Source: Parasporobacterium sp.
GTDB lineage: Bacteria; Bacillota; Clostridia; Lachnospirales; Lachnospiraceae
Direction: 5' to 3'
Assembly: GCA_017459985.1 (NCBI GenBank)
Contig: JAFUBX010000010.1
Location: 29,674 to 93,673, forward strand
Length of the DNA stretch: 64,000 bases
Position 1 is the first letter of the stretch. Each line of letters begins with the position of its first letter. Positions 18,053 through 59,656 of the stretch are shown piece by piece. Both the position numbers and the translations under genes were made by a program. Below the pieces are notes generated by a model. The model had not been told where the DNA came from and made no database searches. It saw only the letters and a program-made list of their open reading frames with translations.

Positions 18053-18109
18053 ACAGCGGAGTCAATCATCCGTATACTGATGAACAGCACGGAAAGGGGC
18101 TCATCAGCT

Positions 18110-34322: not shown

Positions 34323-35294
34323 ATGGAAAATAATACCAAGCTAAGACCGTTATTCCTTGCAAGGATATTGGCTGAGCGCACAGACGAAGAGCATTATCTG
34401 ACGACAAATCAACTGATCGATATTTTGAATAATGAGTTTGGTATTCCAGCTCATCGTCAAACGATTGCTTTTGAAATTAAGATGCTTCAGCAGGCAGGGA
34501 TGGATATAGACGTTCAAAAGTCTGTGCAAAATAGATTTCGATACATTGGGAGGCAATTTGATATTGCAGAGCTCAAACTGTTAATCGATGCAGTTGATTC
34601 TAGCAAGTTTATTTCTCCTAAAAGAAGCATGCAACTGACAGAAAAACTTTGCGCTCTTGCCGGTCCATATAAAGCGACAGAATTTAAACGGAATATTCTT
34701 GTTGAAGGGAAAGTTAAAACTTCCAATGAAAAGGTAACATTCATAATTGACGCGGTAAACACTGCTATCAATAGAAAAAGAAAAATATCCTTCTTATATT
34801 TCCATTATAACGAAAAAAAGAATAAGGTTTATAAGAACGATGGAAAACCATATATTTTCAGTCCTTATTATCTTGTCTGGAATGGTGATTATTATTATAT
34901 GGTAGGCTGGTCTGATAAACATAATAAGATTACTACATTCAGAATAGACCGGGTGGTGGAATCTCCGGAAATACTTGATCAGAAAGCAGCACCAAAGCCA
35001 AAGGATTTTAATATCAACAAACATATAAACGAAGCGTTCCATATGTTTGATTGTGACAAAGAAGCGGTTACGCTGCGCTGCGACAATGATATGATGGATG
35101 CAATCATTGATAAATTCGGCGAGAATGTGAAAGTAAAAAATAACAGCAATGGAACTTTTGAAATTACGGAAACAGTGGCCGTAAGTAATGTTTTTTATTG
35201 CTGGATCTTTGGCTTCGGAGGAAAAGTAAAAATAATAAAGCCAGATAAAATTATGAAAGATTACATGGGATTGAAACAGAATTTAATCAATTGA
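34323..35294 (+). CDS. WYL-domain transcriptional regulator
   Basis: 323 residues. The N-terminal HTH (YLTTNQLIDILNNEFGIPAHRQTIAFEIKMLQQAGMDI) is followed by the WYL domain (ISFLYFHYNEKKNKVYKN, then YIFSPYYLVWNGDYYYMVGWSDKHNKITTFRIDRV) and a C-terminal WCX extension. WYL regulators commonly control defence islands and may sense nucleic acids or nucleotides. It begins the AT-rich island and precedes the methyltransferase by 37 bp in the same orientation. Confidence 0.88.
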   Translation: MENNTKLRPLFLARILAERTDEEHYLTTNQLIDILNNEFGIPAHRQTIAFEIKMLQQAGMDIDVQKSVQNRFRYIGRQFDIAELKLLIDAVDSSKFISPKRSMQLTEKLCALAGPYKATEFKRNILVEGKVKTSNEKVTFIIDAVNTAINRKRKISFLYFHYNEKKNKVYKNDGKPYIFSPYYLVWNGDYYYMVGWSDKHNKITTFRIDRVVESPEILDQKAAPKPKDFNINKHINEAFHMFDCDKEAVTLRCDNDMMDAIIDKFGENVKVKNNSNGTFEITETVAVSNVFYCWIFGFGGKVKIIKPDKIMKDYMGLKQNLIN

Positions 35295-35331
35295 TAATAT
35301 CAGTAAACGAAGAACTAATGGAGGATTAATA

Positions 35332-36438
35332 ATGAAAGAAGAAAAGCATCCATATGCGCCAAAAGTAGTATCAATCTTTTCCGGGTGCGGAGGCTTAGAT
35401 TTAGGTTTTCATATGGAGGGTTATGATACGGTTTGGGCCAATGATTTTGAACAATGGGCAGTAAAATCTTTTGCTACAAATTTTGGCGATGTTATAAAGC
35501 TTGGAGATATAACAAAGATTGACCCATATACGGACAAAACAATTCCGGAATGCGATATTGTTCTCGGTGGATTTCCTTGTCAGGATTTTTCTATTATTTG
35601 GAAACAACCCGGGCTTAATGGAACAAGAGGAGGACTCTTTAGGCATTTTGCAGAATTTGTGGATGCAAAAAAACCGAAAGCGTTTGTTGCTGAAAATGTT
35701 AAAGGGCTTCTTACGGCTAATGGGGGAAAAGCTATAGATACCATAGTAAAGGATTTTGAAAGCATTGAACCAGGATATGTAGTTAAACCGCATCTTTATA
35801 ATTTTGCGGAGTATGGTGTGCCTCAGTTTAGAGAGCGTGTATTGTTCGTAGGAGTAAGGATTGACACTGGATTTGATTTTGTGCATCCTAAGCCCTCTCA
35901 TGGTCCTAATGGTGCGCTGCCGTATGTTACTGCGGGCGAAGCATTAAAAGGTGTTGAGAAAGTTTCTGCTAACAGTGAGCAGATAAATATAAAAGAAAAA
36001 ACACGGAAGATGCTAGAACTAATTCCCGAAGGCGGTAATTTTTCAGACATACCCAAAGACCATCCTTTATATGTTAAGGGAATGATAAGCCATGTTTATC
36101 GCAGAATAAAATTAGATGAACCTGCAAAAACCATTATTGCTGCCGGAGGAGGAGGAACTTGGGGCTATCATTATCCGGAACCAAGACCGTTGACGAATAG
36201 AGAAAGAGCGAGACTGCAATCATTTCCAGATGATTTTGTATTTGAGGGTAGTATTGCAGAAGTTAGACGGCAGATTGGAAATGCAGTTCCTCCGGTCGGA
36301 GTGCGTGCTGTGGCAAAACGTTTGCTGCCCCTTTTTACAGGGGATTATGAGAAGATTGATCTAGTCCCTGAATACGAAAAGATGAAAGCGATGACAGTCA
36401 AAGAAAGACTGGATTATGTAACATCTCAGATGAACTGA
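35332..36438 (+). CDS. DNA (cytosine-5) methyltransferase
   Basis: 368 residues. It methylates C5 of cytosine in a specific DNA site. Visible motifs: I (IFSGCGGLDLGFHMEGYD), IV with catalytic Cys83 (LGGFPCQDFS), VI (AFVAENVKGL), VIII-like (YGVPQFRERVLFVGVR), IX (RARLQSFPDDFVF) and X (QIGNAVPPVGVRAVAKRL). Length is normal for a type II enzyme. RBS GGAGGATTAATA. Its partner is likely the adjacent NgoFVII-like nuclease. The target sequence cannot be read from the protein. Confidence 0.93.
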   Translation: MKEEKHPYAPKVVSIFSGCGGLDLGFHMEGYDTVWANDFEQWAVKSFATNFGDVIKLGDITKIDPYTDKTIPECDIVLGGFPCQDFSIIWKQPGLNGTRGGLFRHFAEFVDAKKPKAFVAENVKGLLTANGGKAIDTIVKDFESIEPGYVVKPHLYNFAEYGVPQFRERVLFVGVRIDTGFDFVHPKPSHGPNGALPYVTAGEALKGVEKVSANSEQINIKEKTRKMLELIPEGGNFSDIPKDHPLYVKGMISHVYRRIKLDEPAKTIIAAGGGGTWGYHYPEPRPLTNRERARLQSFPDDFVFEGSIAEVRRQIGNAVPPVGVRAVAKRLLPLFTGDYEKIDLVPEYEKMKAMTVKERLDYVTSQMN

Positions 36439-36450
36439 AAGGAGGCATTT

Positions 36451-37512
36451 ATGGAATTTTTGTTTTCAAATTATCCTCCAGTCAAAACAGGAAATAAAAC
36501 ATTTATAGATGCATTCTATGGCTTATTAAATCAGGCGTCGGAAATGAACATTGCTGTTGGATATGTTTCTTCTGACTCGCTGGTGGAACTACAGAAAACG
36601 ATTGAATTAAATGAGAATATTCATAAGTTGAATCTTGTTATTGGAATGCATTATTATGAGCGTTTTACAAAAACACAATATAATGCAGCTAACAGATTGA
36701 GTAAGTTTTTGCGTGATAATGAGATTGGGGATGTCAAACTGGTCACCGCCTTTAAATATCACGGCAAGTTATATTCGTATAGCAATGACCAAGGTCCATT
36801 TGCTGGAATTATAGGCTCTAATAATTTAGGCAGTATAGTAGAGGGCGGATCAAGAGTGTATGAGAGCTCGATCTTGCTAAATGATTATGAGTCGGCAAGG
36901 AAGATGAATGATTTTATAGTCAATCTTTCAAACAATGCATCAAAAAGTATCTCTGAATTAGAAATTACAGAATTTAATGACGAAAACCCTTTGCTTGAGG
37001 GACATGAATTTGTTAAAAGAGTAATGCCGTATGTCCTCGCTCTTACCATGAATAATAAAACGGATTTGTCTTTTGAGATACCCATCAAACCCTATGAGGT
37101 TTCTCCTCAGAGCAACCTGAATGTTTTCTTTGGAAAAGGTAGAGAATCCAAAAATGGATTGGTAAAACCCAGACATTGGTATGAGGTCGAACTCATTGTC
37201 CCAAAAGATGTTACGTCTAAACCAGGATATCCTCAAAGCAAGACAGATAATGCAGTTTTTGATGTTGTTACTGATGATGGGTGGTCTTTCAAATGTAAAG
37301 TTAGCGGGGATTACAGCAAAAACTTCAGATCAGAAGGGGATTTGAAAATACTTGGCAAATGGCTTAAAGGACGATTAGAAAATGCTGGCGTTTTAAAAGT
37401 AGGAGAACCTGTTACAGCAGACACATTGCGAAAATACGGGAGAAGTTCCTTCACGTTAACAAAAACAACTGATTCGAATGTATGGTTTATTGATTTTGGG
37501 GTTAAGGCATGA
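36451..37512 (+). CDS. NgoFVII-like PLD-family restriction endonuclease
   Basis: 353 residues. The N-terminal half has the single-HKD PLD nuclease signature of NgoFVII/BfiI-type enzymes: His104-x-Lys106 (FKYHGKLYSY) and SNNLGSIVEGG (about 123-133). The C-terminal half (from about residue 210) is a DNA-binding-like domain (RHWYEVELIVPKDV). Such enzymes cut DNA without metal as dimers. RBS AAAGGAGGCATTT; the stop overlaps the Z1 gene start by ATGA. It probably forms a restriction-modification set with the methyltransferase. Confidence 0.8.
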   Translation: MEFLFSNYPPVKTGNKTFIDAFYGLLNQASEMNIAVGYVSSDSLVELQKTIELNENIHKLNLVIGMHYYERFTKTQYNAANRLSKFLRDNEIGDVKLVTAFKYHGKLYSYSNDQGPFAGIIGSNNLGSIVEGGSRVYESSILLNDYESARKMNDFIVNLSNNASKSISELEITEFNDENPLLEGHEFVKRVMPYVLALTMNNKTDLSFEIPIKPYEVSPQSNLNVFFGKGRESKNGLVKPRHWYEVELIVPKDVTSKPGYPQSKTDNAVFDVVTDDGWSFKCKVSGDYSKNFRSEGDLKILGKWLKGRLENAGVLKVGEPVTADTLRKYGRSSFTLTKTTDSNVWFIDFGVKA

Positions 37513-39401
37513 GTTATTTAGAATCTTATTTGAATAGAATAAAAAACAAAGGGAATCAAGCCCTCGCAGATGCTATAAAAAAAACAGTTGACGATGTAGT
37601 TCCTCAATACATTTCTAACTTTTCATTTACTGATCATGTGGTCAGCTTGTTGGTCGGTGATGTCCAAAGTGGTAAAACTAGTCACATGTTTGGACTCATG
37701 TGCGCTGCTGCTGATGAGAGCTTCTTAAATTTTGTTTTACTTACCACTGATAACATTCTTCTGCAGCAGCAAACATATAAAAGGGCTGAACGAGATCTTT
37801 GTGATTTTTGTGTATGTGACGAAAATGATTATTTGAAATTCGTAGATAATAATCTTCGAAAGCCTGCAGTGATTGTTCTGAAAAAGAATTCTTCGGTATT
37901 AAAGCAGTGGAAAAACAATTTTTCTTCAACAAACTTTTGCGCGGGGAATCCTTTATTCATAGTTGATGATGAGGCTGATGCAGCCAGTCTCAACACACAA
38001 GTTAATAAAAATACACAAAGTGCTATAAATAGACACCTTGAAGCAATTAAGAAAACATCGTCAAGTAGTATATACATGGAGGTAACTGGAACCCCTCAGT
38101 CTATCTTGCTTCAAACGGTTAAGAGTGGATGGAAACCGTATTTTGTTTATTATTTCAAGCCTGGAAGAGGCTACTTAGGAGGAAACTTTTTCTTTCCGGA
38201 CGAGCCTCCGAAGCAGGTTGTCTTGACAGATAATGACGAGGCAACAGAAATACTTAACGATGATGAATTCCCGGAGAATGGATTAAAGACAGCATTGATA
38301 ATGCATTTATTAACGTCCGGGCATATTATGTTAACTGGTGGAAGAGTATGTAATTTCCTTATTCACCCAAGTGTAAAAACAAGTCAGCATTCAGCATTTG
38401 CGACTAAGATCGGAAATTATCTAAACGAAATATCTCATTCCCATGACGAAGAGGAAACTTACGATGCATTTAAAAGTGTCTACGAGTCATTAAAGGAAAC
38501 AAAACCTGATATAGCTGATTTTGATGCAGTGTATTCATATATATCACAGCAGTTGTGTGAGGATAAAGTAAATATACTGATGCTTAACTCTGTAGTTTCA
38601 TACGAGGACAATACGCAGTATGAAGAGGGAATCAATATTATTGTAGGGGGAAACAGCTTGGGTCGAGGTGTTACTTTTCCACAGCTTCAAACAATTTATT
38701 ACTGCAGAGTAGCAAAAAGCCCGCAAGCTGATACTATGTGGCAGCATGCTAGAATGTTTGGATATGACAGAGATCCAGAGTTGATGAGAGTATTTATGCC
38801 TCCTAAGCTATTTAAGCTTTTTTCAGACATAAACAGAACAAATAATAGCATAATTAAGCAGATTGAAAGCATGAATAATGGGACAGACATAAAAATATTC
38901 TATCCAACGAGCTTAAAACCAACGCGTAAAAATGTTCTTGATAAAAAGGCGGTAAGTATATATTCCGGTGGAGTGAATTATTTTCCGTTTTATCCCATAA
39001 ACAAAGATATTGAAACTATTGATAAAATTCTTGAAAGATTTTCTGATGATATATATACAGTCAGCTTAAAGATAATTATAAAATTGCTTGAACAAATGGA
39101 TTCAGAAGTCAACGATTGGGATGCAAAAGCATTTATCGGATTTGTGAATACATATCTAGCTGATAATCCTGCAGCACAAGGTAAATTAATCGTTCGCAGG
39201 AATAGAGATATTGGTAAAGGAACCGGTACTTTACTTTCTCCGACAGACCGCAAGATTGGTGATAGTTTTACAGAAGAAGTTGTTCTTACAGTATATAAAA
39301 TAATTGGAAATAAGTCTAAAGGATGGGACGGACAGCAGATTTGGATTCCCAACATCAAACTTCCCGGAGAATACGCATATTATAGCGGAGAAAATGTATA
39401 G
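37509..39401 (+). CDS. Z1-domain ATPase/helicase-like protein
   Basis: 630 residues. Walker A GDVQSGKT (50-57), Walker B DDEAD in LFIVDDEADAAS, SAT-like VTGTPQSIL, and C-terminal motor motifs NIIVGGNSLGRGVTFPQLQTIYYCRV with QHARMFGYDRD define the Z1 family (PF10593), superfamily 2-like ATPases that accompany certain methyltransferase/Vsr restriction loci. The gene overlaps the nuclease gene by 4 bases and is followed by vsr 20 bp later. It may drive DNA translocation or remodelling for the nuclease; this is inference from context. Confidence 0.85.
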   Translation: MSYLESYLNRIKNKGNQALADAIKKTVDDVVPQYISNFSFTDHVVSLLVGDVQSGKTSHMFGLMCAAADESFLNFVLLTTDNILLQQQTYKRAERDLCDFCVCDENDYLKFVDNNLRKPAVIVLKKNSSVLKQWKNNFSSTNFCAGNPLFIVDDEADAASLNTQVNKNTQSAINRHLEAIKKTSSSSIYMEVTGTPQSILLQTVKSGWKPYFVYYFKPGRGYLGGNFFFPDEPPKQVVLTDNDEATEILNDDEFPENGLKTALIMHLLTSGHIMLTGGRVCNFLIHPSVKTSQHSAFATKIGNYLNEISHSHDEEETYDAFKSVYESLKETKPDIADFDAVYSYISQQLCEDKVNILMLNSVVSYEDNTQYEEGINIIVGGNSLGRGVTFPQLQTIYYCRVAKSPQADTMWQHARMFGYDRDPELMRVFMPPKLFKLFSDINRTNNSIIKQIESMNNGTDIKIFYPTSLKPTRKNVLDKKAVSIYSGGVNYFPFYPINKDIETIDKILERFSDDIYTVSLKIIIKLLEQMDSEVNDWDAKAFIGFVNTYLADNPAAQGKLIVRRNRDIGKGTGTLLSPTDRKIGDSFTEEVVLTVYKIIGNKSKGWDGQQIWIPNIKLPGEYAYYSGENV

Positions 39402-39421
39402 AATAATATTGGAGCATTATT

Positions 39422-39844
39422 ATGGCTGATACAAAAACGTCAGAAGAACGAAGTCTCAATATGTCACATATCCGCAGCGTCAACACAAAACCGGAGGAGA
39501 TAGTTAGAAAATTTTTATTTTCTCAGGGATTTCGATATAGGAAGAATGACAAACGGCTGCCGGGCAAACCTGATATTGTTTTGCCAAAGTACAAAACAGT
39601 AGTATTTGTAAATGGATGTTTCTGGCATATGCATAATTGCTCAAGAGCAAGATTACCAAAATCAAACCTGGAATACTGGGCACCTAAAATACAAAAAAAT
39701 ATTGAGAGAGATCAAGATAATTATAAAAAATTGCGTAATATGGGTTGGAAGGTAATTATTGTATGGGAATGCGAACTTAAGAAAAAAGTTGCTAATGATA
39801 GGTTGAATCGTTTGTGTTCTGAAATATTGGACGTCAGGGTTTAA
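39422..39844 (+). CDS. vsr: Very short patch repair endonuclease Vsr
   Basis: 140 residues. Nicks at T:G mismatches that arise from deaminated 5-methylcytosine, so it accompanies m5C methyltransferases. The Vsr motifs are clear: MSHIRSVNTKPEEIVRKFL, KRLPGKPDIVLP with Asp51, VVFVNGCFWHMHNC with His69, and NYKKLRNMGWKVIIVWECEL. Length is normal. RBS GGAGCATTATT. Confidence 0.94.
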   Translation: MADTKTSEERSLNMSHIRSVNTKPEEIVRKFLFSQGFRYRKNDKRLPGKPDIVLPKYKTVVFVNGCFWHMHNCSRARLPKSNLEYWAPKIQKNIERDQDNYKKLRNMGWKVIIVWECELKKKVANDRLNRLCSEILDVRV

Positions 39845-39901
39845 TGTTGTAAACCCAAAAAGTCGAAATACTAAAGATGGTTATGAGTTAACTGTTTAAT
39901 A

Positions 39902-40813
39902 ATGAATAGTATGGGAGATATGGTATTTATGAAAACTAAAATTGATAAAAGGATTCCACGAACAAGGCAACTAATCCAGGCAACTTTTGATGCTTTGAAG
40001 AAACTTGGCGGATCAGGGAAGAATGAAGAAATAGTCAACCAACTTATACATGACTTAAATATCCCTGATGATGTTGCAGATATCCCTCATAAGGGAAATC
40101 CTAATAAAACCGAATTATCATACCAAGCAGATTGGGCTAGAACATATTTAAATAAAAGTGGAGTTATTGAAAATAGTGCAAGGGGAGTTTGGTCAATTAG
40201 ACCGGATTATGCCGGGATTGATATTTTAGATGAAAAGCAAATTGTATTGTTAGTGCGACTAAAACAAGGTCAGGCAAGTTCCGAATCAGATGATTTAAGT
40301 GACAAACCGGATGATGATGATCCGTCAAATGACTATTTGGAGTATCCGGATGAATTAAAACCATGGAGGGAAAAACTGGCAGATATTTTACAAAATATGG
40401 ATCCGTACGGATTCGAACGGCTTGCGCAAAGAGTACTAAGAGAATGCGGTTTTACCCAAGTTGAAGTTACAAAAAAATCCGGCGATGGTGGAATTGATGG
40501 TACAGGGAAACTTAGGATAAATGGCATCTTTAGTTTTAATGTTGCTTTTCAGTGTAAAAGGTATAAAGGCATGGTTGGCGCTGGGGAAATAAGAGATTTT
40601 AGAGGATCTCTTACGACTGATATTGAAAAAGGTGTCATGATAACAACAGGCACTTTCTCTAAAGCAGCCAAAGAAGAAGCTTCAAATCCTGGAAAACAAC
40701 AAATAGATTTAATTGATGGAGAAGATTTTATTTCAAAAATTGCAGAATATGGTATTGGCGTCCGCCCTGTAACAACATATGAGATAGATGAGGAGTTTTT
40801 CAATAAAATTTAA
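39902..40813 (+). CDS. Mrr-like restriction endonuclease
   Basis: 303 residues. The N-terminal winged-helix Mrr_N-like domain (TRQLIQATFDALKKLGGSGKNEEIV, then ARTYLNKSGVIENSARGVWSI) is followed by the Mrr catalytic domain with the PD-(D/E)XK core: GFERLAQRVLRECGF, SGDGGIDGTG (Asp) and VAFQCKRYKG (Q-x-K), plus MITTGTFSKAAKEEA. Mrr enzymes cut methylated or foreign DNA. The start may instead be ATG 39929 (MKTKIDKR), which has GGGAG upstream. It lies 57 bp after vsr, so it may be a separate unit. Confidence 0.87.
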   Translation: MNSMGDMVFMKTKIDKRIPRTRQLIQATFDALKKLGGSGKNEEIVNQLIHDLNIPDDVADIPHKGNPNKTELSYQADWARTYLNKSGVIENSARGVWSIRPDYAGIDILDEKQIVLLVRLKQGQASSESDDLSDKPDDDDPSNDYLEYPDELKPWREKLADILQNMDPYGFERLAQRVLRECGFTQVEVTKKSGDGGIDGTGKLRINGIFSFNVAFQCKRYKGMVGAGEIRDFRGSLTTDIEKGVMITTGTFSKAAKEEASNPGKQQIDLIDGEDFISKIAEYGIGVRPVTTYEIDEEFFNKI

Positions 40814-40845
40814 CTGCACAAAATGTATAAGGGGAATGAAAGCGT

Positions 40846-42057
40846 ATGCCACTTGGATGGACAGATTTTTCAAAAACTGAACGAAATAAGGTATTGAGCG
40901 TGCTGGATCTTTTATCGGAATCCGGCACTCTTGATGAATTGGGAATTGCTCCAATTCGAGATGGCTTTGCCAATGTTTTCTTTCCCGGAACGTCCACAAT
41001 CCAGACAAGAGCAAAGTATTTTTTAATTGTTCCGTATGCTTTAAAGGAACAGGAATATAGCAATGAAACAAACCCTAACCGCATGCTCAGGATATTTGAT
41101 GAAGTTGAACGGAAATGCGGAGAAATATTGATTGGTGCAGGAAATGACACAGATGGAATTATCGGGAGTAGATCGCTTGCCCATAACACATGGGTGAAAC
41201 GGACACCGGCAGATATCTACTGGGCAGGTCTTAGGAATTATGGAATCTTTACAGGTGGCAATATGTCTCTAACGGAATATGTCCGGGCTATGTGCGCACT
41301 TAAAAACCAGAAGGATACTTTGACCAAATTGGGGAACCGTAATGATAATGCGGAAACTGATGAGGGCGATGACAAGGATGCGGGGGAACTTTTCCGGATG
41401 CAGTTTTGGAAAATTCCAACTTACAAAGAAAGCTGGATGGATGATCTCAGCATAAAGCTTTCTTTTGAAGAGGGGGATTATCTTAAGGGACAGATCACAG
41501 CGTCATATCCGGAATCCATGCTTTCATATATTCTGAAAAACAACCTGACGGAAGTATTTGCCTGCGAGTCTTTCCAGGATATACATGCATTGATTCATTT
41601 ATTCCCTGAGCAGATTCAAAAGGATTATATCCTTGCCTGTGATTTCTCTGATTTTCTGTTTGCTTTAAGAACTATTTATAACATGATCGTTTCCGATGGC
41701 CAAAATAATGCGGCTCAGGCGTTTTGGCAGGAGATGCTTCCTGAGCTTCCTGCAATTGCAGAAGTAGATCTTGAAAGCATTTTCACCAGGCTAAGTATTT
41801 ATGGAAATGTTTTCTTGTGTAATTTCTTACGCAAATCTCAATCACTCATGAAAATGTCTGATCTGGAAGGAATAAAGACAGAGATCAAGCGGAGAGAAAG
41901 GGAATTAAAACAGTCCCGTGCAAAAACGATGCATACGGGCGAATTTGACCCGGACGCATGGTTTGGCGGCGGTGAATTGGATTACCGATTTGGGAATGCA
42001 AAAGTGATTATTGAAGATATCTTTGAAAGCGAGGGGATCTATGTTAAATCCAAATAA
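40846..42057 (+). CDS. DUF6361-family protein
   Basis: 403 residues. The N-terminal signature GWTDFSKTERNKVLSVLDLL, LDELGIAPIRDGFANVFFPG and STIQTRAKYFLIVPYAL matches DUF6361. The rest is mostly helical with no recognised catalytic motif; the conserved WKIPTYKESW-like segment is present. It overlaps the PLD gene by 17 bases and, with the helicase, makes a three-gene operon. I infer a sensor or adaptor role in DNA defence. RBS AAGGGGAATGAAAGCGT. It is visibly less AT-rich than the preceding restriction genes. Confidence 0.8.
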   Translation: MPLGWTDFSKTERNKVLSVLDLLSESGTLDELGIAPIRDGFANVFFPGTSTIQTRAKYFLIVPYALKEQEYSNETNPNRMLRIFDEVERKCGEILIGAGNDTDGIIGSRSLAHNTWVKRTPADIYWAGLRNYGIFTGGNMSLTEYVRAMCALKNQKDTLTKLGNRNDNAETDEGDDKDAGELFRMQFWKIPTYKESWMDDLSIKLSFEEGDYLKGQITASYPESMLSYILKNNLTEVFACESFQDIHALIHLFPEQIQKDYILACDFSDFLFALRTIYNMIVSDGQNNAAQAFWQEMLPELPAIAEVDLESIFTRLSIYGNVFLCNFLRKSQSLMKMSDLEGIKTEIKRRERELKQSRAKTMHTGEFDPDAWFGGGELDYRFGNAKVIIEDIFESEGIYVKSK

Positions 42058-43873
42058 TGACAGACTGGATTATGGGCAGATCCTTGCTCCGCCGGCAGGA
42101 TATTACCTTGATTTTGCAGTTGGCACAACTTATTCACTAGACCTTGATGCGCTTGTCGGAGCCAGCCTGGCGCTTGGACTTTCTGAAGAGACGGATAGTG
42201 AACTTATGAATAATCCGGTATGTCTGTTGGAAGCCCTTAGAAGCACAGGAGATAAAGTGGCGCTGTTATGCGAGGGCGGCCAAATCCATATGCCGGGAAA
42301 CGTTACACCGCTTTACATTCTTCTTGAAAAGATGGTGTTTTCCGTTAAGACTGCAAAGAGGCGGGGGATAGCTGCTTACCCATCGTTTCACCCAAAGTTC
42401 TGGCTGATCCGATATAAGAATAATACTGGAAGCTCGGCTTACAGGATTATTGTGCTGAGCAGAAATCTGACCTTTGACCGCAGCTGGGATGTCACATATT
42501 ACATGGATGGAAAGACAGTAAAATCAAATACTGATAAAAATGAGCCTGTCTGTGACTTCCTTCGGTATCTTTTAAAACAAATGCCATCCGATGAAAATGG
42601 AAAAGAAAAAGCCAAAGGTATCCGTTCGCTGATCAAGGAGCTTTCAAATGTTGTTTTTGAACCTGCGGAAAAGGAATTTTATGATTTTGAATTTATCCCT
42701 AATGGTATTCCAAAACAAAGCGGCGGTTCTTATCAATTTGATAAAACTGCACTGTTTCAGGATACCTTTCACGAGATCCTGATTATGTCGCCATTTGTTT
42801 CCGGAGGAATTATCCGGAATTTCAACGATAGAAATGTTAAATCTCCAATCGAAAATCCCAGATATATGCTGATCACAAGAGAGATGTCGCTTGGAAGACT
42901 AAAACCGGAAGATGTAAGCAATTTCAGAATATACACAATGCGTGATGCCGTAATCGACGGCGAAACTGCAATTTCCGAAGACACATTTGAAATCCAAAAA
43001 CAGGATATCCATGCCAAGATTTATATGATCCGTAAGTATTCCAATACAGACCTTTATCTAGGCTCTTTGAATGCTTCCCATAATGCTGTTTATGGAAATG
43101 TGGAGTTTATGATCTGCCTGAAGGCAAAGAACCGTTATCTGAATATGGATAAACTAACGGATTCTTTGTTTGGAAGTGAAAAGGACAGATCTGATAATCC
43201 ATTCCAGGAAGTCACACTGCAAAATGCGCTCATCGATGAAGATGATGAAAAGACAAAAGAATTAGACAGTATTATAAAGACAATCAACAGGAGCAGTTCG
43301 AATGCACAAGCTGAGATTGCAGAAGATGGCCTGTATACAGTTAAGATTAATTTTGATAAATGCGATATAAAGAATTGCCGCATTCAGGTCAGACCGCTTT
43401 TATCAAGAAAACAGGAAGACTTTGCAGAGAATATTATTTTTAAAGGGCTTGCTGTTACACAGCTGTCAGAGTTCTATGTAATTTCTGTCTCAGACGGATC
43501 GCAAAAAGTGGAAAGAGTTTTGATTATCCCGACAGACGGTATGCCGGAGGACAGGGAAAAACAGGTGGTATCCAATGTCGTTAGCGACAGGGAATGTTTC
43601 TACAGATATATAGCATTTCTGCTTGGAGATGATATGATCCTCTCTGTACTTGAGGCAAATACAGCAGCAGAAGAAACAAACGGATTGATAAGCAGACAGT
43701 CATATCATGTTCCGGCTCTTTATGAAAAGATGCTTCAGACTGCAGCAGTTAATCCAGAACGGTTTAAAGGCATTGGATATCTGATGAAAACAATCTCCGA
43801 GGATGGTATTATTCCGGAAGATTTCAAGAAGTTATATGAGACATTCAAGAGGGCGGTAAAAATCGATGGCTAA
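42041..43873 (+). CDS. PLD-superfamily protein with two HxK motifs
   Basis: 610 residues from ATG 42041 (GAGGGG upstream). First motif His117-x-Lys119 (SFHPKFWLIRY) with SRNLTFDRSWD; second His324-x-Lys326 (DIHAKIYMIRK) with LGSLNASHNAVYGNVEF. Two half-sites in one chain are typical of phospholipase-D-like nucleases and lipases; with a helicase partner a nuclease is more likely. The C-terminal about 200 residues have no recognised domain. It overlaps DUF6361 by 17 bases and the helicase by 8 bases. Confidence 0.82.
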   Translation: MLNPNNDRLDYGQILAPPAGYYLDFAVGTTYSLDLDALVGASLALGLSEETDSELMNNPVCLLEALRSTGDKVALLCEGGQIHMPGNVTPLYILLEKMVFSVKTAKRRGIAAYPSFHPKFWLIRYKNNTGSSAYRIIVLSRNLTFDRSWDVTYYMDGKTVKSNTDKNEPVCDFLRYLLKQMPSDENGKEKAKGIRSLIKELSNVVFEPAEKEFYDFEFIPNGIPKQSGGSYQFDKTALFQDTFHEILIMSPFVSGGIIRNFNDRNVKSPIENPRYMLITREMSLGRLKPEDVSNFRIYTMRDAVIDGETAISEDTFEIQKQDIHAKIYMIRKYSNTDLYLGSLNASHNAVYGNVEFMICLKAKNRYLNMDKLTDSLFGSEKDRSDNPFQEVTLQNALIDEDDEKTKELDSIIKTINRSSSNAQAEIAEDGLYTVKINFDKCDIKNCRIQVRPLLSRKQEDFAENIIFKGLAVTQLSEFYVISVSDGSQKVERVLIIPTDGMPEDREKQVVSNVVSDRECFYRYIAFLLGDDMILSVLEANTAAEETNGLISRQSYHVPALYEKMLQTAAVNPERFKGIGYLMKTISEDGIIPEDFKKLYETFKRAVKIDG

Positions 43874-46800
43874 TGTAGCAGACCAGCTTGACATAATTGA
43901 AAATAAAATAATGAGCGGTCTGAAGGATTTTCAGAAAGCTACGGTAGAACGCATAGATTATCTGTACCGTCATCATCAGCGCCGTGTACTGGTTTCTGAC
44001 GAGGTCGGATTGGGCAAGACACTGATAGCCAGAGGCACGGTAGCCAAAATGGCTATGCTTCGCCGCGAGGAAGGCGATAACCTCTTTAAGGTTGTCTATA
44101 TCTGTTCCAATGCTGCCATAGCGGAGCAGAATCTCAGGAAACTCCGGATCACGCATGAGGCTCAGACGGAAAGTACTTCGTCTTCGCGTCTTTCAATGCA
44201 GCATCTGAATATTTTCAAACAGGAAAATGATGCGGATTTATTGAACAGGTATATACAACTTATTCCGTTGACACCGGACACATCTTTCAGGATGACGGCA
44301 GGACAGGGAACCGTTTCTGAACGGGCATTAATGTTTGTGCATTTGCGCAGAATGCCGGAACTTAAAAACTATATCGGTGAGCTGGAGGTTGCCATGATGG
44401 ACTGGGCAACCGCAGCGTGGAATTCATGGTGCAAAACCTGGTATGAAAAGGAAGCGTCAGAGTGCAATAAGAAATCAAACGGCAGATATTTTGAATACAT
44501 GCAGACATGCCTCCATAAAGAGTTATTTGGCATATGGTACGATGATGTCAGCTTTATGGACGGCCTTATCGCTCTTTGTAAGGATATACGGCGTAATAAT
44601 GGGGAACGTGTTGGAAACAATTCCATCATCGGGCAGCTGCGCGTTATATTTGCAAAAATCAGCCTCGAAAAGCTGGAACCGGACCTTGTCATTATGGATG
44701 AGTTCCAAAGGTTTAAGTATCTTCTGAATTCTGATCCGGAATCAGAAACAGGCATGCTCGCAGACAAGTTCTTTCATGCAAAGGATGTACGTATACTGCT
44801 TTTGTCTGCTACGCCATATAAGATGTATTCGACTCCGGAAGAGATTGATGAAACAAGGATTGATGAGCATTATACAGAATTTCTTTCTGTTATGAATTTC
44901 CTGAATGAAGATCCGGAAATCGAGAATCAATTTCTGACGGTATGGAAGGATTATTCCATCAAATTGAAAGAAATGACATTTGGCGATACAACGATCCTGT
45001 CTGCGAAGGATGCTGCAGAGGAAGCAATGTATCAGACTGTATGTAGAACAGAAAGAATTACAGCGTCAGAAAATGCAGATATTATTGACGACAGCGATGT
45101 ACATATACCTTTAGAGGTATTGGAACAGGATGTCCGTTCGTATGTGCAGGCACAGGAATTACTTGACCAGATCGGGGCTAATTATCATGTTCCGGTGGAT
45201 TATATAAAATCGACCCCATATCTGATGTCCTTTATGCGTGACTACCAATTAAAGAGAAATGTTGAAAAATACTTTAAGTCACATCCGGATGAACTTAGGA
45301 AAATCAAAAAGGATTCATTTTGGCTGAAACGTAATGTAATTGACCGGTATGAGCGCATTCCAAATAATAATGCCAGACTGGAAAGAGTCATGAACAGCGT
45401 ATTGCAGAAAGGTGTGGAGAAGCTTTTGTGGATGCCCCCTTCTAGACCGTATTATGAGATGGAAGGTGTTTATAGAAATACGGAATTTTCCACCAAAACG
45501 CTGGTATTCTCATCGTGGGAAATGGTTCCAAGGATGCTGGCAAGCCTGCTTTCTTATGAAGCAGAGCGCAGAACCGTCGGAAAACTGGCGAAGGATTATC
45601 AGGACAGGGATGTGCATTATTTCTACAGCGGGGAAAAACGTTATCCGTCTGCACGAATGAATTTTTCTGTCAGAAACGGTGTTCCAGGATCAATGACACT
45701 GTTCTGTTTATTGTATCCTTCCAGCTTTTTATCTTCCTGTTATGATCCGATTGCATGTTTGAATGCAGGAATGGGAATTCGTGACATACGGAAGATGGTG
45801 CAGGAAAGAATCAATGAGAAGATTCAGACGTTTCCGTCTCCGGATCGCGGCAATCCGGATCGGAGATGGTATTATATCGCTCCGCTCATGATGGATGAAG
45901 CATCTTATGCGTATTCGTGGCTGGAAAGTGCCGGGAAGTTGGCAGATTATGAAGACGGGGATGAAAAAACAAAAAAACAGAAGGGATTCTTAACTCATCT
46001 GGATGCGTTGCAGGAACTTTTTTATGAGACTCATCGTGAGAAATTTGCAAATTTGGGAAAACAGCCGGACGACCTTCTGGAAGTGCTTACAGACATGGCG
46101 ATTGCATCTCCTGCCGTTTGTGTCAATCGTACTTATCAACATTACATTACGGTTGAAGAAGAGCTCCCTTCGTATCTGCCGAGTCAGCTGGCAAGAGTGT
46201 TTATCAATCGCATGAATACTCCCGAGTCTACGGCAGTTGTGGAGCTTGCCTGCGGAAGAAAAACTGAAGATGCTCATTGGCAGAATCTCCTGACCTACTG
46301 CAGGCATGGAAATCTTCAGGCTGTTTTTGATGAGTATGCGCATTTGATTTCTAACGGTATCGATCATGATGAATCATTGGTATATCAGATGCATCGGCAG
46401 ATGAGGGAAGCGATGGATATCCGTACAACCCAGTACAATGTTGATACATATAAAAGCTTTCAGAAACGAGCTTATGGGCAGAAGGAAAAGCCGACGAATA
46501 TCAGGACTCATTTTGCAGTTGCTTTTACGAAGGGAGAGGGGAAAGAATCAGATACCGACCGGAAGAAAACCATTCGTAATGCATTCAATTCGCCGTTCCG
46601 TCCGTTTGTACTTGCAAGCACATCCATAGGACAGGAAGGCTTGGATTTTCATAATTACTGCAGGAAGATCGTCCACTGGAATCTGCCGTCAAATCCAATT
46701 GATCTGGAACAGAGGGAAGGCAGGATCAACAGATTTGAATGCCTTGCAATTCGCCAGAATGTTGCAAAGCGGTATGGCAAGATTGAATTTCATTCTGATA

Positions 46801-47135
46801 TCTGGCAGGAAATGTTTGATGAAGCTGCTGTTGCTGAAAAGACCGGCGGATCATCTGATCTTGTTCCGTTCTGGGGATTGAGGGAAACTGCCGATATGAT
46901 CAAAATAGAACGGATTGTACCGATGTATCCGTTCAGCAGAGACGGTCTGGCATATGAACGGCTGATAAAGATTTTGTCATTATACCGGCTTACACTTGGA
47001 CAGGCCAGGCAGGAGGAACTTCTGGAGTATCTGTTCAAAAACTGCGATAATCCGGATAAACTGAAGGAACTGTTTATCAATCTTAGCCCGTTTTATAAAG
47101 ACAGGGGGAAACATAGTGAGAGTACTGTTTCGTAA
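43866..47135 (+). CDS. SNF2/superfamily 2 helicase of the DUF6361-PLD operon
   Basis: 1089 residues. Walker A SDEVGLGKT (residues 44-52), Walker B-like LVIMDEFQRF and motif III LLLSATPYKMYS form the first RecA lobe. After a large insert, the second lobe has FVLASTSIGQEGLDFHNYCRKIVHWNLPSNPIDLEQREGRINR. The DEFQRF form of the DEAH box is characteristic of this helicase group. The start is inside the PLD gene end, with GAGGGCGG upstream. It is probably the motor of a defence complex with DUF6361 and PLD proteins. Confidence 0.88.
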   Translation: MANVADQLDIIENKIMSGLKDFQKATVERIDYLYRHHQRRVLVSDEVGLGKTLIARGTVAKMAMLRREEGDNLFKVVYICSNAAIAEQNLRKLRITHEAQTESTSSSRLSMQHLNIFKQENDADLLNRYIQLIPLTPDTSFRMTAGQGTVSERALMFVHLRRMPELKNYIGELEVAMMDWATAAWNSWCKTWYEKEASECNKKSNGRYFEYMQTCLHKELFGIWYDDVSFMDGLIALCKDIRRNNGERVGNNSIIGQLRVIFAKISLEKLEPDLVIMDEFQRFKYLLNSDPESETGMLADKFFHAKDVRILLLSATPYKMYSTPEEIDETRIDEHYTEFLSVMNFLNEDPEIENQFLTVWKDYSIKLKEMTFGDTTILSAKDAAEEAMYQTVCRTERITASENADIIDDSDVHIPLEVLEQDVRSYVQAQELLDQIGANYHVPVDYIKSTPYLMSFMRDYQLKRNVEKYFKSHPDELRKIKKDSFWLKRNVIDRYERIPNNNARLERVMNSVLQKGVEKLLWMPPSRPYYEMEGVYRNTEFSTKTLVFSSWEMVPRMLASLLSYEAERRTVGKLAKDYQDRDVHYFYSGEKRYPSARMNFSVRNGVPGSMTLFCLLYPSSFLSSCYDPIACLNAGMGIRDIRKMVQERINEKIQTFPSPDRGNPDRRWYYIAPLMMDEASYAYSWLESAGKLADYEDGDEKTKKQKGFLTHLDALQELFYETHREKFANLGKQPDDLLEVLTDMAIASPAVCVNRTYQHYITVEEELPSYLPSQLARVFINRMNTPESTAVVELACGRKTEDAHWQNLLTYCRHGNLQAVFDEYAHLISNGIDHDESLVYQMHRQMREAMDIRTTQYNVDTYKSFQKRAYGQKEKPTNIRTHFAVAFTKGEGKESDTDRKKTIRNAFNSPFRPFVLASTSIGQEGLDFHNYCRKIVHWNLPSNPIDLEQREGRINRFECLAIRQNVAKRYGKIEFHSDIWQEMFDEAAVAEKTGGSSDLVPFWGLRETADMIKIERIVPMYPFSRDGLAYERLIKILSLYRLTLGQARQEELLEYLFKNCDNPDKLKELFINLSPFYKDRGKHSESTVS

Positions 47136-47944
47136 ATGGATGATAATATAGTGAAATTATCAAAAAAATAAAACTGATATCAAATAATATATGTTACGGG
47201 CCGTGTCCGGAACCGTCAGCAGAAGTTGAACAGCATCTAACGATTAATTCTGCTGGTAAGGTATGGTTCTCTGCCAGAAACTATGAACAGTATTTGGCCG
47301 GAAAAGGTTTTTGTAGAAAAAAACAGGTAAATATCGGGACTTGGAAAGCAAGCTTCCTGCTTAATTTAATTAATAAAGCGGATGAAGGAACATTTGTGAC
47401 AGATGTCGGAGACTATGAACTAATCATTAAATATGACGATGAGAGTAAGAGACGGATTCATGGCTCTTTGGCAGGAGATATTAAAGGTTGTTCCTATGGA
47501 AATAAACCGATATCTTTAACAAAACTTATGCGCAGGTATGTGCCGATATATGCATTGTGGGGATTTGACGGAAACTTATCTCCTGATTACGAAGGAAAGA
47601 AAGCAGTATATTTGTTTGCCGATAAATGGGAGAAAAAGTTTGCAACCAGTATGATTATTGAAAACGAATTTGAAGAACGGTTTGGCGATGAATGTATAGC
47701 TCTGGGATTTCAGATGGATTGCGGGAAAGAGGCGGAACGGTTATATCCTGGCTGTCTTCGCATGAATGATTTTGATCCGGAAGCTATAGTCAATCATATA
47801 AATGATATTGATCTTATTGGTTCTGCTGTATTTTCTCAATGGAGATATTTGACACACTGGGCAGGCGTATATGAGCTTAATTATGAAACATGTCAATGGT
47901 TTTCAGCAATGCTCCGCCAATTAAAAAAAAGAGCCGGAAAGTAG
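47136..47944 (+). CDS. Unrecognised protein needing a -1 frameshift at an A7 run
   Basis: ATG 47136 directly follows the helicase stop and encodes MDDNIVKLSKK before TAA 47169. The stop sits immediately after TC-AAAAAAA (47162-47168), read as A-AAA-AAA, the classical -1 slippery heptamer. Shifting -1 gives KIKLISNNICYGPCPEPSA, then VEQHLTINSAGKVWFSARNYEQYL, and joins the 216-codon frame open to 47944. The protein-like sequence upstream of the TTG at 47294 shows that the short form is not the whole gene. It has Cys pairs and aromatic residues but no known motif. Alternatives: a frameshift mutation, sequencing error in the A run, or transcriptional slippage. It is 3 bp before the Cas4-like gene. 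Confidence 0.55.
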
Positions 47945-47947
47945 GGC

Positions 47948-48652
47948 ATGTCAATGGGTATTACTAAAACGGATTTCATGCGCGGAATACAATGCAAGAA
48001 AATGCTGTGGTTGGATAAACATAAGCCCAAATTAAAGGTGATTCCACCGGAAATACAGATGCGACTGGATGCGGGGAACGATTTCGGTGACCGTGCTATG
48101 GGAATGTTCGGGGAATATGAGGAGATGACTATTTATCGGCCAGGAACGACCATTCCGGATAAAAAAGCAATGGCTGAGAGAACCCAGGAACACATAAAGA
48201 TGGGAACCTCTGTCATTTGTGAGGCTGCTTTTCTATATTATAATAATTACTGTGCTGTAGACATTCTTCGAAGAACAATTCAGGGATTTGATTTTTATGA
48301 AGTAAAAAATGCTCCGCAGGTGCATGATCAGTTTATTAAAGATGCCGGTTTTCAGTATTATATTATGAATCGTTGCGGACTAAATATAGGGCATATTCAT
48401 ATTGTTACTCATGGAGAAGACGAAGAACATCCATTTGTAGTTAATGATGTTACAGAAGAAGCTAAAGGATACTCCAATTGGGTGAATGACAATATTTGGG
48501 ATCTGAATCGAATGCAGAAACAAACGGATGAGATTCAAATAGAGCCTGGGGAGCAGTGCTGCAAGCCATATGAATGTTGGTATTATGGATATTGCCATGA
48601 CGGACAGCTAAGTATTAGTGATATTAGTAAGTCAAATGATCCGCTGAATTAA
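47948..48652 (+). CDS. Cas4/DUF2779-N-like PD-(D/E)XK nuclease with Fe-S-type cysteines
   Basis: 234 residues. The ITKTDFMRGIQCKKMLWLDKH start and DAGNDFGDRAMGMF segment match the N-terminal part of DUF2779 and Cas4/RecB-like nucleases. Catalytic-type residues: Glu92, Asp105 (CAVDIL), Glu118 and Lys120 (FYEVKNA), and QYY at 136-138. Cysteines Cys16, Cys204/205, Cys210 and Cys216 (CCKPYECWYYGYC) fit a 4Fe-4S cluster. The C-terminal RNase-H-like half of DUF2779 is absent, so this is a short form. No CRISPR array or other cas gene is present. It ends the defence run. Confidence 0.75.
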   Translation: MSMGITKTDFMRGIQCKKMLWLDKHKPKLKVIPPEIQMRLDAGNDFGDRAMGMFGEYEEMTIYRPGTTIPDKKAMAERTQEHIKMGTSVICEAAFLYYNNYCAVDILRRTIQGFDFYEVKNAPQVHDQFIKDAGFQYYIMNRCGLNIGHIHIVTHGEDEEHPFVVNDVTEEAKGYSNWVNDNIWDLNRMQKQTDEIQIEPGEQCCKPYECWYYGYCHDGQLSISDISKSNDPLN

Positions 48653-52410: not shown

Positions 52411-53712
52411 ATGGCATTTAATAATAAACCGAAAAGCAGGATCAGGTATGACAGCCGGCATATAAGGCTCAGGACCGGCGAGTCTGAAAAAAGGGGCGGA
52501 GGCTATGTTTTCCGGTGGACGACTCCAGACGGGAAAAGACATGCCATATATGAAAGCACGCTGGAAAAACTCCGGATCAGGGAAGAGGAGATTACCGAAG
52601 ACGCAAAGGACGGAATCCGGGAAGACCTTGCGACTTTTACGGTCAATGAACTATATGAGCTCTGGAAAGATCTGAAAAGGGGAATCAAGGACAGCACGTT
52701 CAAGAACTACTGCTATATGTATGACATGTTTGTGAAGCCGGTGTTCGGGACTCATTATTTAGTGCGGGTAAAGAAATCAACCGTACGCGCTTTCTATAAC
52801 AAACTGGCAGACCAGAACGGCCTGAAGATATCAACGATTGACGGCATCCACAATGTACTGCACCAGATCTTTCAGGTAGCCGTGGATGATAATATGATCC
52901 GCTACAATCCTACCGACAATATGCTCAAGGAACAGAAAATGGCAAGGCAGGAACGAGGGAGCAAAAGAGAAGCGCTCACGCTCAGTCAGCAGAGACTGTT
53001 TTTCGATTTTCTGAGAAAGAACAATCAGTACAGCCATTGGTACCCAGTATTCTTTATCATGGCAAATACCGGGATGCGTGTCGGCGAGATCACCGGCCTC
53101 AGGTGGAAGGATGTAGATCTTGAAAAGGGTATCATCAGCGTGAACCATACGCTCGTTTATTATAATCACCGGGACGAGCGGGGCTGCTACTATTCTGTTA
53201 ATACGCCCAAAACTAAGGCCGGTGAGCGCAGGATCCCCATGACAGCAGCCGTCAGGGAGGCGTTCCTTACGGAAAAGGAATTCCAGGAGGCTGCGGGGAT
53301 CGAATGCAGGGAACGTGTGGACGGTTATGATGATTTTATCTTTCTTAACCGTTTCGGGAAGGTGCACAACCAGGCATCCCTGAACCGGGCACTTAAAAGG
53401 ATCATGAAGGACTGCAACCTCGCGATCCTTGAAAAGAAGGGGGCGGATTCTGATCCGGTGCTCCTGCCGAACTTTTCCTGCCACATACTCCGGCATACGT
53501 TCTGCACCCGTGCGATAGAGGCGGGCATGAGCCCCTCCGCTTTGATGGGGCTGGCAGGACATGCGGATATCAAGACAACGCTGCAGCTTTATGTAACGCT
53601 GACGGAAGAGGAGAAGAACAAGGCAGTGAATTCATTCCAGGATTATGTTTCCAGGGAGATCAGCGGCACAGAAGCCACCGATGGGGAGGAACAGGCTGAT
53701 GATGTCGTATGA
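52411..53712 (+). CDS. int: Tyrosine recombinase/integrase 1 (Tn916-like)
   Basis: 433 residues from ATG 52411 (AGAAAGGAGCTGCAGAG upstream). The AP2-like N-terminal arm-binding domain (GGGYVFRWTTPDGKRHAIYESTLEKLR) is followed by a SAM-like core-binding domain and the catalytic domain: Arg in NTGMRVGEITGLRW, His-x-x-Arg in CHILRHTFCTR, GHADIKTT and Tyr in LQLYVTLTEEE. All catalytic residues are present. It integrates and excises the element with Xis. The 3' end overlaps the treble-clef gene by 14 bases. Confidence 0.93.
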   Translation: MAFNNKPKSRIRYDSRHIRLRTGESEKRGGGYVFRWTTPDGKRHAIYESTLEKLRIREEEITEDAKDGIREDLATFTVNELYELWKDLKRGIKDSTFKNYCYMYDMFVKPVFGTHYLVRVKKSTVRAFYNKLADQNGLKISTIDGIHNVLHQIFQVAVDDNMIRYNPTDNMLKEQKMARQERGSKREALTLSQQRLFFDFLRKNNQYSHWYPVFFIMANTGMRVGEITGLRWKDVDLEKGIISVNHTLVYYNHRDERGCYYSVNTPKTKAGERRIPMTAAVREAFLTEKEFQEAAGIECRERVDGYDDFIFLNRFGKVHNQASLNRALKRIMKDCNLAILEKKGADSDPVLLPNFSCHILRHTFCTRAIEAGMSPSALMGLAGHADIKTTLQLYVTLTEEEKNKAVNSFQDYVSREISGTEATDGEEQADDVV

Positions 53713-55621
53713 GAAGGAACCACTGACTGTATCACATCCGGAGCTGGCGGCGGAATGGTCAGAGAAGAACTTTCCGCTGCGTCCGGATCAGGTAACGTAT
53801 GGCAGCCATGATCTGGTGTGGTGGAAGGGAAAATGCGGACACGAATGGCAGGCTGTAGTGGGTAATCGTGTGAGAGGAACAAGCTGTCCCTACTGCAGCA
53901 GCAGGAAGGTGCTTGCCGGGTTCAATGACCTTGCAACAAAGAGGCCGGATCTTCTTGCCGATTGGGATCATGAGAAAAACATGCCTTTAAAACCAGATGA
54001 GATAGGTCCCTGTTCAAACCGGAAGGTATGGTGGAAATGTCGAAATGGTCATGAATATCTCATGACACCGAACCTGAGATCGAAAGGCTGCGGATGCAAA
54101 ATCTGCAGTTCCGGCCAGGGACACCTGACTGGCTTCAATGATCTTGCAACACTTCATCCGGAACTGGCGGCGGAATGGTCGGAAAAGAATCTCCCACTGA
54201 CACCGGGCAAGGTGTTCGGACTGAAAAAAAGACAATTCTTCTGGTGGAAGTGTCCGGACTGCGGAAGTGAATACAAGTATGACCTGCGGGGAAGGCTTGA
54301 GGGATATGGGTGTCCATATTGTGCGGGATTCGAATTGAAGCCCGGGTTCAATGACCTGGCGACGACGGATCCGGATATTACTATTGAATGGGATCACAAC
54401 AAGAATGATGGCGCAGTGCCGGAACAGTTTTTCCGAACATCCCGCAGATTTGCATGGTGGAAGTGCGGAAGGGGGCATTCCTACGGATGCAGGATCAATG
54501 AAAGAACTGTAGGAAGAAAAGAGTGTTATATATGTGAAGCAGAGTTTTCCGCCTGTCTCCCAGGAATGCTGGCGATCCGATACGCAAAACAGAACGGACT
54601 GACAGTACATGTATGTTATGAACTGGAGGAAGGCTGTAGTTTCGAGATTTACATCCCGGAGATAAAGCTTGCGCTGGAAACTGCAGGAGTATCTGCGGAA
54701 AAACAGCAGAAGCAGAAGGAAAAGTGCCGCCGATGCGAGACTTATGGATTCAGGTGCGTGATCATTGAAAGAAATACCGACCGGGTCAAGATGGCACAGG
54801 CAGTGATAAAGACCTTTGGGGGTGCAGGCATCAGGATCACCTCCGTGATCGAAGAGGATATCAGGATCCTGCGGGAGGAGTTCCTTGGCCCGCCACGCAG
54901 AGTCAGTAATGCCGCAAAGCCATTTCTGGAAAAACATGGAAAGGTCCACGGTTACAGAAGCAGGAAAAGAGAATCTCTCTCAAGGACAAATCCGGAACTT
55001 ATCCCGCAGTGGTCAGAAAGGAACTATCCTTTCACGATCGATGATGAGAATGCATCGAGTCCGGATAAAGTCTGGTGGAAGGGCGCCTGTGGTCACGAAT
55101 GGAAAGCTATGGTACGGAACCGTGCCGGTAAAAAGAAAACCGGCTGCCCCTACTGCAGCGGGCATACAGTATTGAAAGGTTTTAATGATCTGGCGTCACA
55201 GCATCCGGAACTCCTTAAGGAATGGTCAGATAATAATAAGCTGCTCCGTCCGGATGAGATCCTGGCAACGAGCTGTAAAAAAGTGATCTGGAAATGTGCG
55301 ATGGGTCATGAGTGGATGACAAGTCCGGCAAACAGGGTCAAAGGAAACGGATGCCCCATATGCGCAAGGGACCCGCTCATCAGGGGAGTAAATGATCTCG
55401 CAACTGAACACCCTGAGCTTGTCCCTATATGGTCAGAACAAAATCTGCCACTAAAGCCTGGAGATATACGGGCAGGATACAGAAAACAGGTATGGTGGAA
55501 ATGTCAGCGGTGCGGGGAAGAATTCCAGGCGCAGGTAAAAACGGAAATCTATTACATGAACCGCTATGGTCATGCGCTATGCAGGCGGTGCAGGGAAAAA
55601 GAGGGCAATGCAGATGGATGA
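53699..55621 (+). CDS. Treble-clef zinc-ribbon repeat protein coupled to integrase 1
   Basis: 640 residues from ATG 53699 (GGGAGG upstream), starting inside the integrase gene. Four DUF4379-like zinc-ribbon units (each with EWSEKN-, VWWKGKCGHEW-, CPYCSS- and GFNDLAT-like elements) are followed by a nuclease-like middle domain (SFEIYIPEIKLALE, then CETYGFRCVIIER, about residues 310-390) and then three more ribbons. The usual catalytic Asp is Glu and the EYDG motif is lost, as in the 18110 paralogue. Coupling to an integrase suggests a DNA-binding role in recombination or cargo capture. Function unknown. Confidence 0.75.
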   Translation: MMSYEKEPLTVSHPELAAEWSEKNFPLRPDQVTYGSHDLVWWKGKCGHEWQAVVGNRVRGTSCPYCSSRKVLAGFNDLATKRPDLLADWDHEKNMPLKPDEIGPCSNRKVWWKCRNGHEYLMTPNLRSKGCGCKICSSGQGHLTGFNDLATLHPELAAEWSEKNLPLTPGKVFGLKKRQFFWWKCPDCGSEYKYDLRGRLEGYGCPYCAGFELKPGFNDLATTDPDITIEWDHNKNDGAVPEQFFRTSRRFAWWKCGRGHSYGCRINERTVGRKECYICEAEFSACLPGMLAIRYAKQNGLTVHVCYELEEGCSFEIYIPEIKLALETAGVSAEKQQKQKEKCRRCETYGFRCVIIERNTDRVKMAQAVIKTFGGAGIRITSVIEEDIRILREEFLGPPRRVSNAAKPFLEKHGKVHGYRSRKRESLSRTNPELIPQWSERNYPFTIDDENASSPDKVWWKGACGHEWKAMVRNRAGKKKTGCPYCSGHTVLKGFNDLASQHPELLKEWSDNNKLLRPDEILATSCKKVIWKCAMGHEWMTSPANRVKGNGCPICARDPLIRGVNDLATEHPELVPIWSEQNLPLKPGDIRAGYRKQVWWKCQRCGEEFQAQVKTEIYYMNRYGHALCRRCREKEGNADG

Positions 55622-58783: not shown

Positions 58784-59656
58784 ATGAGTGCTAATTTAAA
58801 AACAATCGGGTATATCCTGGGAGGAGCGGCTGGATGTGCAGGACTTATTCTTGGCATTGATGCTATGATCAAAACAACTATGAAGTCTGGCGGGGACGGA
58901 TTCGATTCTGAAGGATATGACAGAGACGGTTACGATCGACAGGGCTATAACCGGCAGGGACGGGATCGACAGGGTTATAATGCTGCGGGATTTAACACTG
59001 AGGGTTTTAACCGTATGGGAATCGATGCAGATGGTTATGATAGACAGGGCTTTGACGCTGACGGATACAATCGATCCGGTCGAGATAAACGAGGTTTTGA
59101 CCGTGATGGATTCGATATCGATGGGTTTGATCGTTTTGGAAGAGATGCCGAAGGATATCGACGGAACGGGTTTGGGACCGACGGTTTTAATCGCGAAGGT
59201 TTTGACTGGGAAGGTTTTGGACGGGATAGATATGATGCATCTGGTCTGGACAGAGCAGGTCACTGCCGCCAGTTCTACTCTGATCATATTGAGCAATTAA
59301 GAGAACGGCTGGATGATGCTTATCAACAGTTACAGAAAGGGGAGTACCGTTACGCTGTGTATGATGCACGTGTTGTTATGGAAGATGCGCTTCGTATGAT
59401 CGTGCAGCACGATTCGGGCTCAGATGGATCAGACGATCGGATGCTGGTCAATCTGAAAATATGCGAACGAAAGAGGCTTCTTGATAACAATGAGTTTCTT
59501 GAGCGTTTGCATGATGTAAGAAGGATATGCAATATCAATGGACATGAATTAGGAAGTGAAGATACTTTGTCTCATAATAAGGTGCATTTCGTAGTCATGC
59601 AAATAAGGGATCTTCTAGATGCAGCAGAAGACAACCTTGTACGAAAAAAAGAGTGA
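58784..59656 (+). CDS. Membrane protein with 24 tandem (Y/F)(D/N)xxG pentapeptides and HEPN/DUF4145-like end
   Basis: 290 residues. One N-terminal membrane helix (IGYILGGAAGCAGLILGIDAMI, residues 8-29) leads into residues 40-159, 24 uninterrupted five-residue units such as YDRDG, YDRQG, FNTEG and FDIDG. These are not the A(D/N)LxX pentapeptide repeats of Qnr-type proteins. The C-terminal about 120 residues (QLRERLDDAYQQLQKGEYRYAVYDARVVMEDALRMIV, then RICNINGHELG) look like a helical DUF4145/HEPN-type domain without a clear RxxxxH. It is divergent from the HTH gene. Function unknown. Confidence 0.65.
   Translation: MSANLKTIGYILGGAAGCAGLILGIDAMIKTTMKSGGDGFDSEGYDRDGYDRQGYNRQGRDRQGYNAAGFNTEGFNRMGIDADGYDRQGFDADGYNRSGRDKRGFDRDGFDIDGFDRFGRDAEGYRRNGFGTDGFNREGFDWEGFGRDRYDASGLDRAGHCRQFYSDHIEQLRERLDDAYQQLQKGEYRYAVYDARVVMEDALRMIVQHDSGSDGSDDRMLVNLKICERKRLLDNNEFLERLHDVRRICNINGHELGSEDTLSHNKVHFVVMQIRDLLDAAEDNLVRKKE

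Follow-up and report, generated by a model that had tools for sequence, protein, structure and literature searches.

An Azaca-type zacA-zacB-zacC operon in a Parasporobacterium contig

Identity of the operon and its three proteins

Within a 64,000-nucleotide stretch of Parasporobacterium sp. contig JAFUBX010000010.1 (hereafter the window), three plus-strand genes at 40846-42057, 42041-43873 and 43866-47135 very probably make up an intact copy of the Azaca system (zacA-zacB-zacC). PADLOC-DB, a library of defence proteins, assigns ZacA, ZacB and ZacC to the three products with nearly end-to-end coverage of each, and on these matches the possibility of chance open reading frames (ORFs) was rejected. 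The genes are adjacent, in A-B-C order and on one strand, with overlaps of 17 and 8 bases between neighbours, and the catalytic motifs are unbroken, with HxK twice in ZacB and GLGKT, DEFQ and QREGRINR in ZacC. The DNA of the operon has a single match in the 3.53-Mb, 131-contig assembly. The trio is like Azaca in its near-full-length matches, gene order and motifs, no feature distinguishing the window copy was found, and the locus is an ordinary copy of an already known, named system, from which identity an anti-phage role would follow. The original prediction had described three overlapping genes for a DUF6361 protein, a phospholipase D (PLD)-type protein with two HxK motifs and a 1089-residue motor, with which coordinates, Pfam and PADLOC agree, and its view of them as a defence-type unit combining a helicase with a PLD nuclease-like protein is borne out by the Azaca match; its claim that the set is unlike other named systems is overturned by that match. 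In excerpts of published work, ZacC is tied to Azaca (PMC12278908), a PLD-like domain is given for Azaca with credit to Millman et al. 2022 (PMC10952713), and the mechanism of Azaca is entered as unknown (PMC12926258, PMC10482375).

The first gene, zacA, encodes a DUF6361 protein of 403 residues whose residues 3-395 match the PADLOC ZacA profile over positions 5-393 of 396 (9.8e-85), while the Pfam DUF6361 match (1.7e-23) covers the N-terminal third only. Its predicted structure is all-helical, with a predicted local distance difference test (pLDDT) score of 89.1, and a search of the PDB for structural relatives of this model returned none that was convincing. Eight residues are invariant across 37 aligned ZacA sequences. 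NCBIfam gave no match for either ZacA or ZacB.

The second gene, zacB, encodes a protein of 610 residues when read from the ATG at 42041, within a frame that opens with a TTG at 42011, and matches positions 1-582 of the 586-position PADLOC ZacB profile (3e-151). No other PADLOC model matched ZacB at E up to 1, and there is thus no DrmC-type match; the Pfam PLDc_2 match is sub-threshold. A two-lobe PLD fold is predicted, in which a single chain carries two HxK...N half-sites. The first, H117-P-K119 (42389..42397), has N142 in SRNLT as its likely partner, with H, K and N present in 36/36 aligned rows, and the second, H324-A-K326 (43010..43018), is likely partnered by N344 in GSLN, with each of the three residues in 35/36 rows. 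The top solved fold for the ZacB model was Tdp1, tied with a phospholipase D. The PLD fold is common to ZacB and the DNA enzymes Tdp1, SauUSI, NgoAVII and BfiI; Tdp1 likewise has two half-sites within one chain, and in SauUSI one chain holds both the helicase and the PLD part. ZacB departs from these four enzymes in an added C-terminal region (about residues 406-610, beyond the range covered by the fold alignment) and in having its motor encoded by a separate gene.

The third gene, zacC, encodes a superfamily 2 (SF2) helicase-type motor of 1089 residues, with Pfam matches to Helicase_C, DEAD and ResIII and a PADLOC ZacC match with an E-value of 0 (1059.5 bits, profile positions 6-1017 of 1019). 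Its Walker A motif (GLGKT, residues 48-52, 44007..44021), motif II (DEFQ, residues 278-281, 44697..44708) and motif VI region (QREGRINR, residues 949-956, 46710..46733) are strongly conserved, as G50, K51 and T52, the whole of DEFQ, and Q949, R950, R953 and R956 are present in 30/30 aligned rows. The 29 other rows range from 24% to 66% identity to the window copy, indicating that the copies are diverse. Weaker PADLOC matches link the C-terminal helicase domain to DrmD (4.2e-14) and ZacC to M27C (4.1e-21, best stretch 94 residues).

Relatives, distribution and the wider family

Relatives were taken as the best 80 of 184 from a contig scan with a four-sequence ZacC alignment, and 37 of these 80 match the ZacC profile at E below 1e-30. 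All 37 of those loci contain zacB and 36 contain zacA or a piece of it; since the loci were picked by ZacC, the count bears on co-occurrence given ZacC. The sole locus without zacA (L047) has a contig end inside zacB. Short zacA genes occur at three loci, L032 (cut by the contig), L041 (185 residues) and L045 (231 residues), and zacB of L038 is split over two ORFs. Adding the window, L013 and L014 to the 37, the A-B-C order on one strand is seen in 39 of 40 loci, the remaining one being cut by the contig. The alignments, of 37 ZacA, 36 ZacB and 30 ZacC sequences, leave out cut, split (L038 zacB) and short (zacA of L032, L041 and L045) sequences; the ZacC sequences left out were mostly over-extended or awkward to place.

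Among the matches listed, the hosts of Azaca loci include Clostridia, Actinobacteria, Proteobacteria, Bacteroidota, Verrucomicrobia, Planctomycetota, a methanogenic archaeon and others. The ZacA profile matches 5/291 genomes of the class to which the window belongs (its own genome counted) and 0/14 control genomes. Four of the five have ZacC, including one in which zacA and zacC lie on separate short contigs (G281); in the fifth (G240), zacA has an internal stop and lies on a short contig, and ZacC was not found. The ZacC profile by itself matches 6/14 control genomes, which means that Azaca is recognised by the three proteins together and not by its motor. Of 72,556 plasmid records searched by tblastn with ZacC, 42 matched, including 19 from Cronobacter, and in the one record inspected, an archaeal plasmid of Halomarina, genes for DUF6361, phospholipase D family and DEAD/DEAH helicase proteins are consecutive. 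Azaca is widespread, patchy and mobile, which is the pattern expected for a defence system.

Two further loci, L052 and L081, contain a ZacB-like protein and no match to the ZacA profile. The L052 trio matches M27A, M27B and M27C of the PADLOC candidate system PDC-M27 and has an Azaca-like order of short protein, PLD protein and motor; for its PLD protein there is, in addition, a match to ZacB (2.3e-15; hhalign 97%). At L081, ZacB (2.8e-15) outscores M27B (9.5e-6) as a match for the PLD protein, M27C is the best match of the motor (7.5e-40), and the first protein has no PADLOC match. When these first proteins were compared with ZacA by hhalign, each as a single sequence, L052 gave an E-value of 2.6e-4 and a probability of 42% over residues 25-124 only, and L081 a probability of 7% over residues 25-110 only. 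ZacA residues D30, G33 and P47 are kept in both aligned stretches, and Y58 also in L081. The gene order of PDC-M27 is as in Azaca, whereas in the window copy ZacC alone matches the candidate system, through M27C, and neither ZacA nor ZacB matches the M27A or M27B model with an E-value of 1 or below. These likenesses suggest that Azaca and PDC-M27 may be branches of one plan. A bolder reading would place Azaca, PDC-M27 (L052) and the L081 arrangement in one three-part defence superfamily, built of a ZacA-like protein that shares an N-terminal D-x-x-G...P motif, a two-half-site PLD enzyme and a motor of the SF2 type, in which a Tdp1-like ZacB delivered by ZacC would attack protein-capped or blocked phage DNA ends. 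We regard this as quite unlikely, the tie of Tdp1 with a phospholipase D in the fold match having lowered its likelihood slightly.

Genomic surroundings

The Azaca copy is cargo of a conjugative element and is placed among restriction genes. A C5 methyltransferase gene lies at 35332-36438, and a SNF2-type helicase of 1186 residues with an N-terminal Swt1-like HEPN domain, encoded at 60278-63838, matches DrmD (1.5e-107); no DISARM locus was recognised beside it. Near this helicase, 58784-59656 encodes a protein that contains a short repeat (G-aromatic or R-D/N) and for which no Pfam or PADLOC match passed the limits applied. The product of 19743-20744, just upstream of the relaxase gene, has a CAP12/Pycsar-type TIR domain and matches the candidate PDC-S35 (3.3e-51). 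Two proteins (18080-19303 and 53645-55621) consist of repeated treble-clef zinc fingers; the latter matches DUF4379 in seven stretches, and the former is similar by eye. The second gene after Azaca, at 47948-48652, has a start resembling by eye that of a DUF2779 protein (8.9e-48) adjoining Azaca at L014:4346-5866; its product is shorter, has no Pfam family match and is perhaps a truncated copy.

Elsewhere, Azaca lies with a type I restriction system and relatives of two transfer-region genes of the window in L097 (MT835621.1, 1-24343), which is entered as Bacteriophage sp. and marked UNVERIFIED; this sequence resembles a piece of a conjugative element, and the phage label is probably mistaken. 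At L037:3491-6955, L042:3433-6825 and L051:3536-6943, a large gene (1131-1155 residues) that contains a GSGKT-type motif stops 8-49 bases 5' of zacA on the same strand and is preceded by another large gene; the two could be an AddAB-like pair linked to Azaca.

The defence-island linkage claimed in the original prediction was compared across 34 Azaca loci, using the nearest complete ORF of 120-1200 residues on each side where present (65 of the 121 ORFs in a listing of up to two per side), and a control of 65 of the 69 ORFs from 15 regions in other taxa. With an E-value cutoff of 1e-10, 164 PADLOC models are matched by the neighbours and 9 by the control proteins; the test is weak because models, not proteins, were counted and the control came from other taxa. 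Most of the 25 neighbour-matched models listed are GajB models with 3-5 members each, probably hit by the same UvrD-like proteins; UvrD-type (5-7/65) and PD-(D/E)XK (4/65) families are among the commonest. We take this comparison as no more than a hint.

Proposed mechanism and alternative readings

We propose, tentatively and with a likelihood that falls a little short of even, that ZacC, as an SF2 motor powered by ATP and akin to the DISARM/RapA class, would load on or move along foreign DNA, while ZacB, as a phosphodiesterase with two HxK...N half-sites per chain, would cut the phosphodiester backbone or process DNA ends. A covalent phosphohistidine step is known for Tdp1 and PLD enzymes, and ZacB may act through the same intermediate. 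The helical ZacA, encoded first, may join or gate ZacB and ZacC; the original prediction had cast DUF6361 as a sensor or adaptor, a candidate role that the analysis neither supports nor contradicts. Given the likeness of ZacB to Tdp1, the targets could be DNA ends that are blocked or capped by protein.

Two other identities were weighed and found highly improbable. DUF6361 is a Pfam family of unknown function, and the literature searched held no mention of it by that name, as would suit a previously unnamed defence system; the near-full-length PADLOC matches to ZacA, ZacB and ZacC refute this. The island could also be pieced together into a DISARM variant, with the C5 methyltransferase, ZacB and ZacC, and the 60278-63838 helicase, a reading favoured by the strong DrmD match of that helicase and the weak one of ZacC. 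DISARM has a motor of the SF2/SNF2 type, as does Azaca, and also includes a PLD-type protein. The Azaca unit differs in lacking a DUF1998 protein, a DrmC match and a methyltransferase, and DISARM was rejected as its identity; DUF1998 (DrmB) was absent from all 11 proteins scanned at 34323-48652, and the original prediction was right to separate the unit from DISARM.

For the function of Azaca, the Tdp1 fold match, the HKN motifs of ZacB and the UvrD-type and PD-(D/E)XK neighbours would also suit a repair or DNA-end-processing module of a mobile element, in which a Tdp1-like enzyme strips protein from DNA ends with the aid of a motor. This is very unlikely given that the trio matches a named defence system, that restriction genes surround the window copy and a type I restriction system lies beside the L097 copy, and that presence is patchy, at 5/291 genomes of the class, unlike that of housekeeping repair. 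Less remote, though still somewhat unlikely, is abortive infection, in which ZacC, on sensing damaged DNA or the structures of phage replication, would free ZacB as a non-specific nuclease to destroy all DNA of the cell, by analogy with HamAB of Hachiman. An excerpt of PMC12278908 is consistent with this in that Azaca and Hachiman share the pairing of a helicase with a nuclease, and it names ZacC together with HamB only when listing SF1/SF2 helicases of defence systems. As described in the excerpts, Hachiman resembles Azaca in keeping helicase and nuclease on separate chains and differs in having two components and another nuclease family; ZacB, moreover, is modelled as a PLD fold, and no search in this analysis linked it to HamA.

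As one more copy of Azaca, the window operon matters little alone. The two HKN half-sites of ZacB on a predicted PLD fold, together with the eight invariant residues of ZacA, point to candidate mutants and would make the mechanism of Azaca testable.
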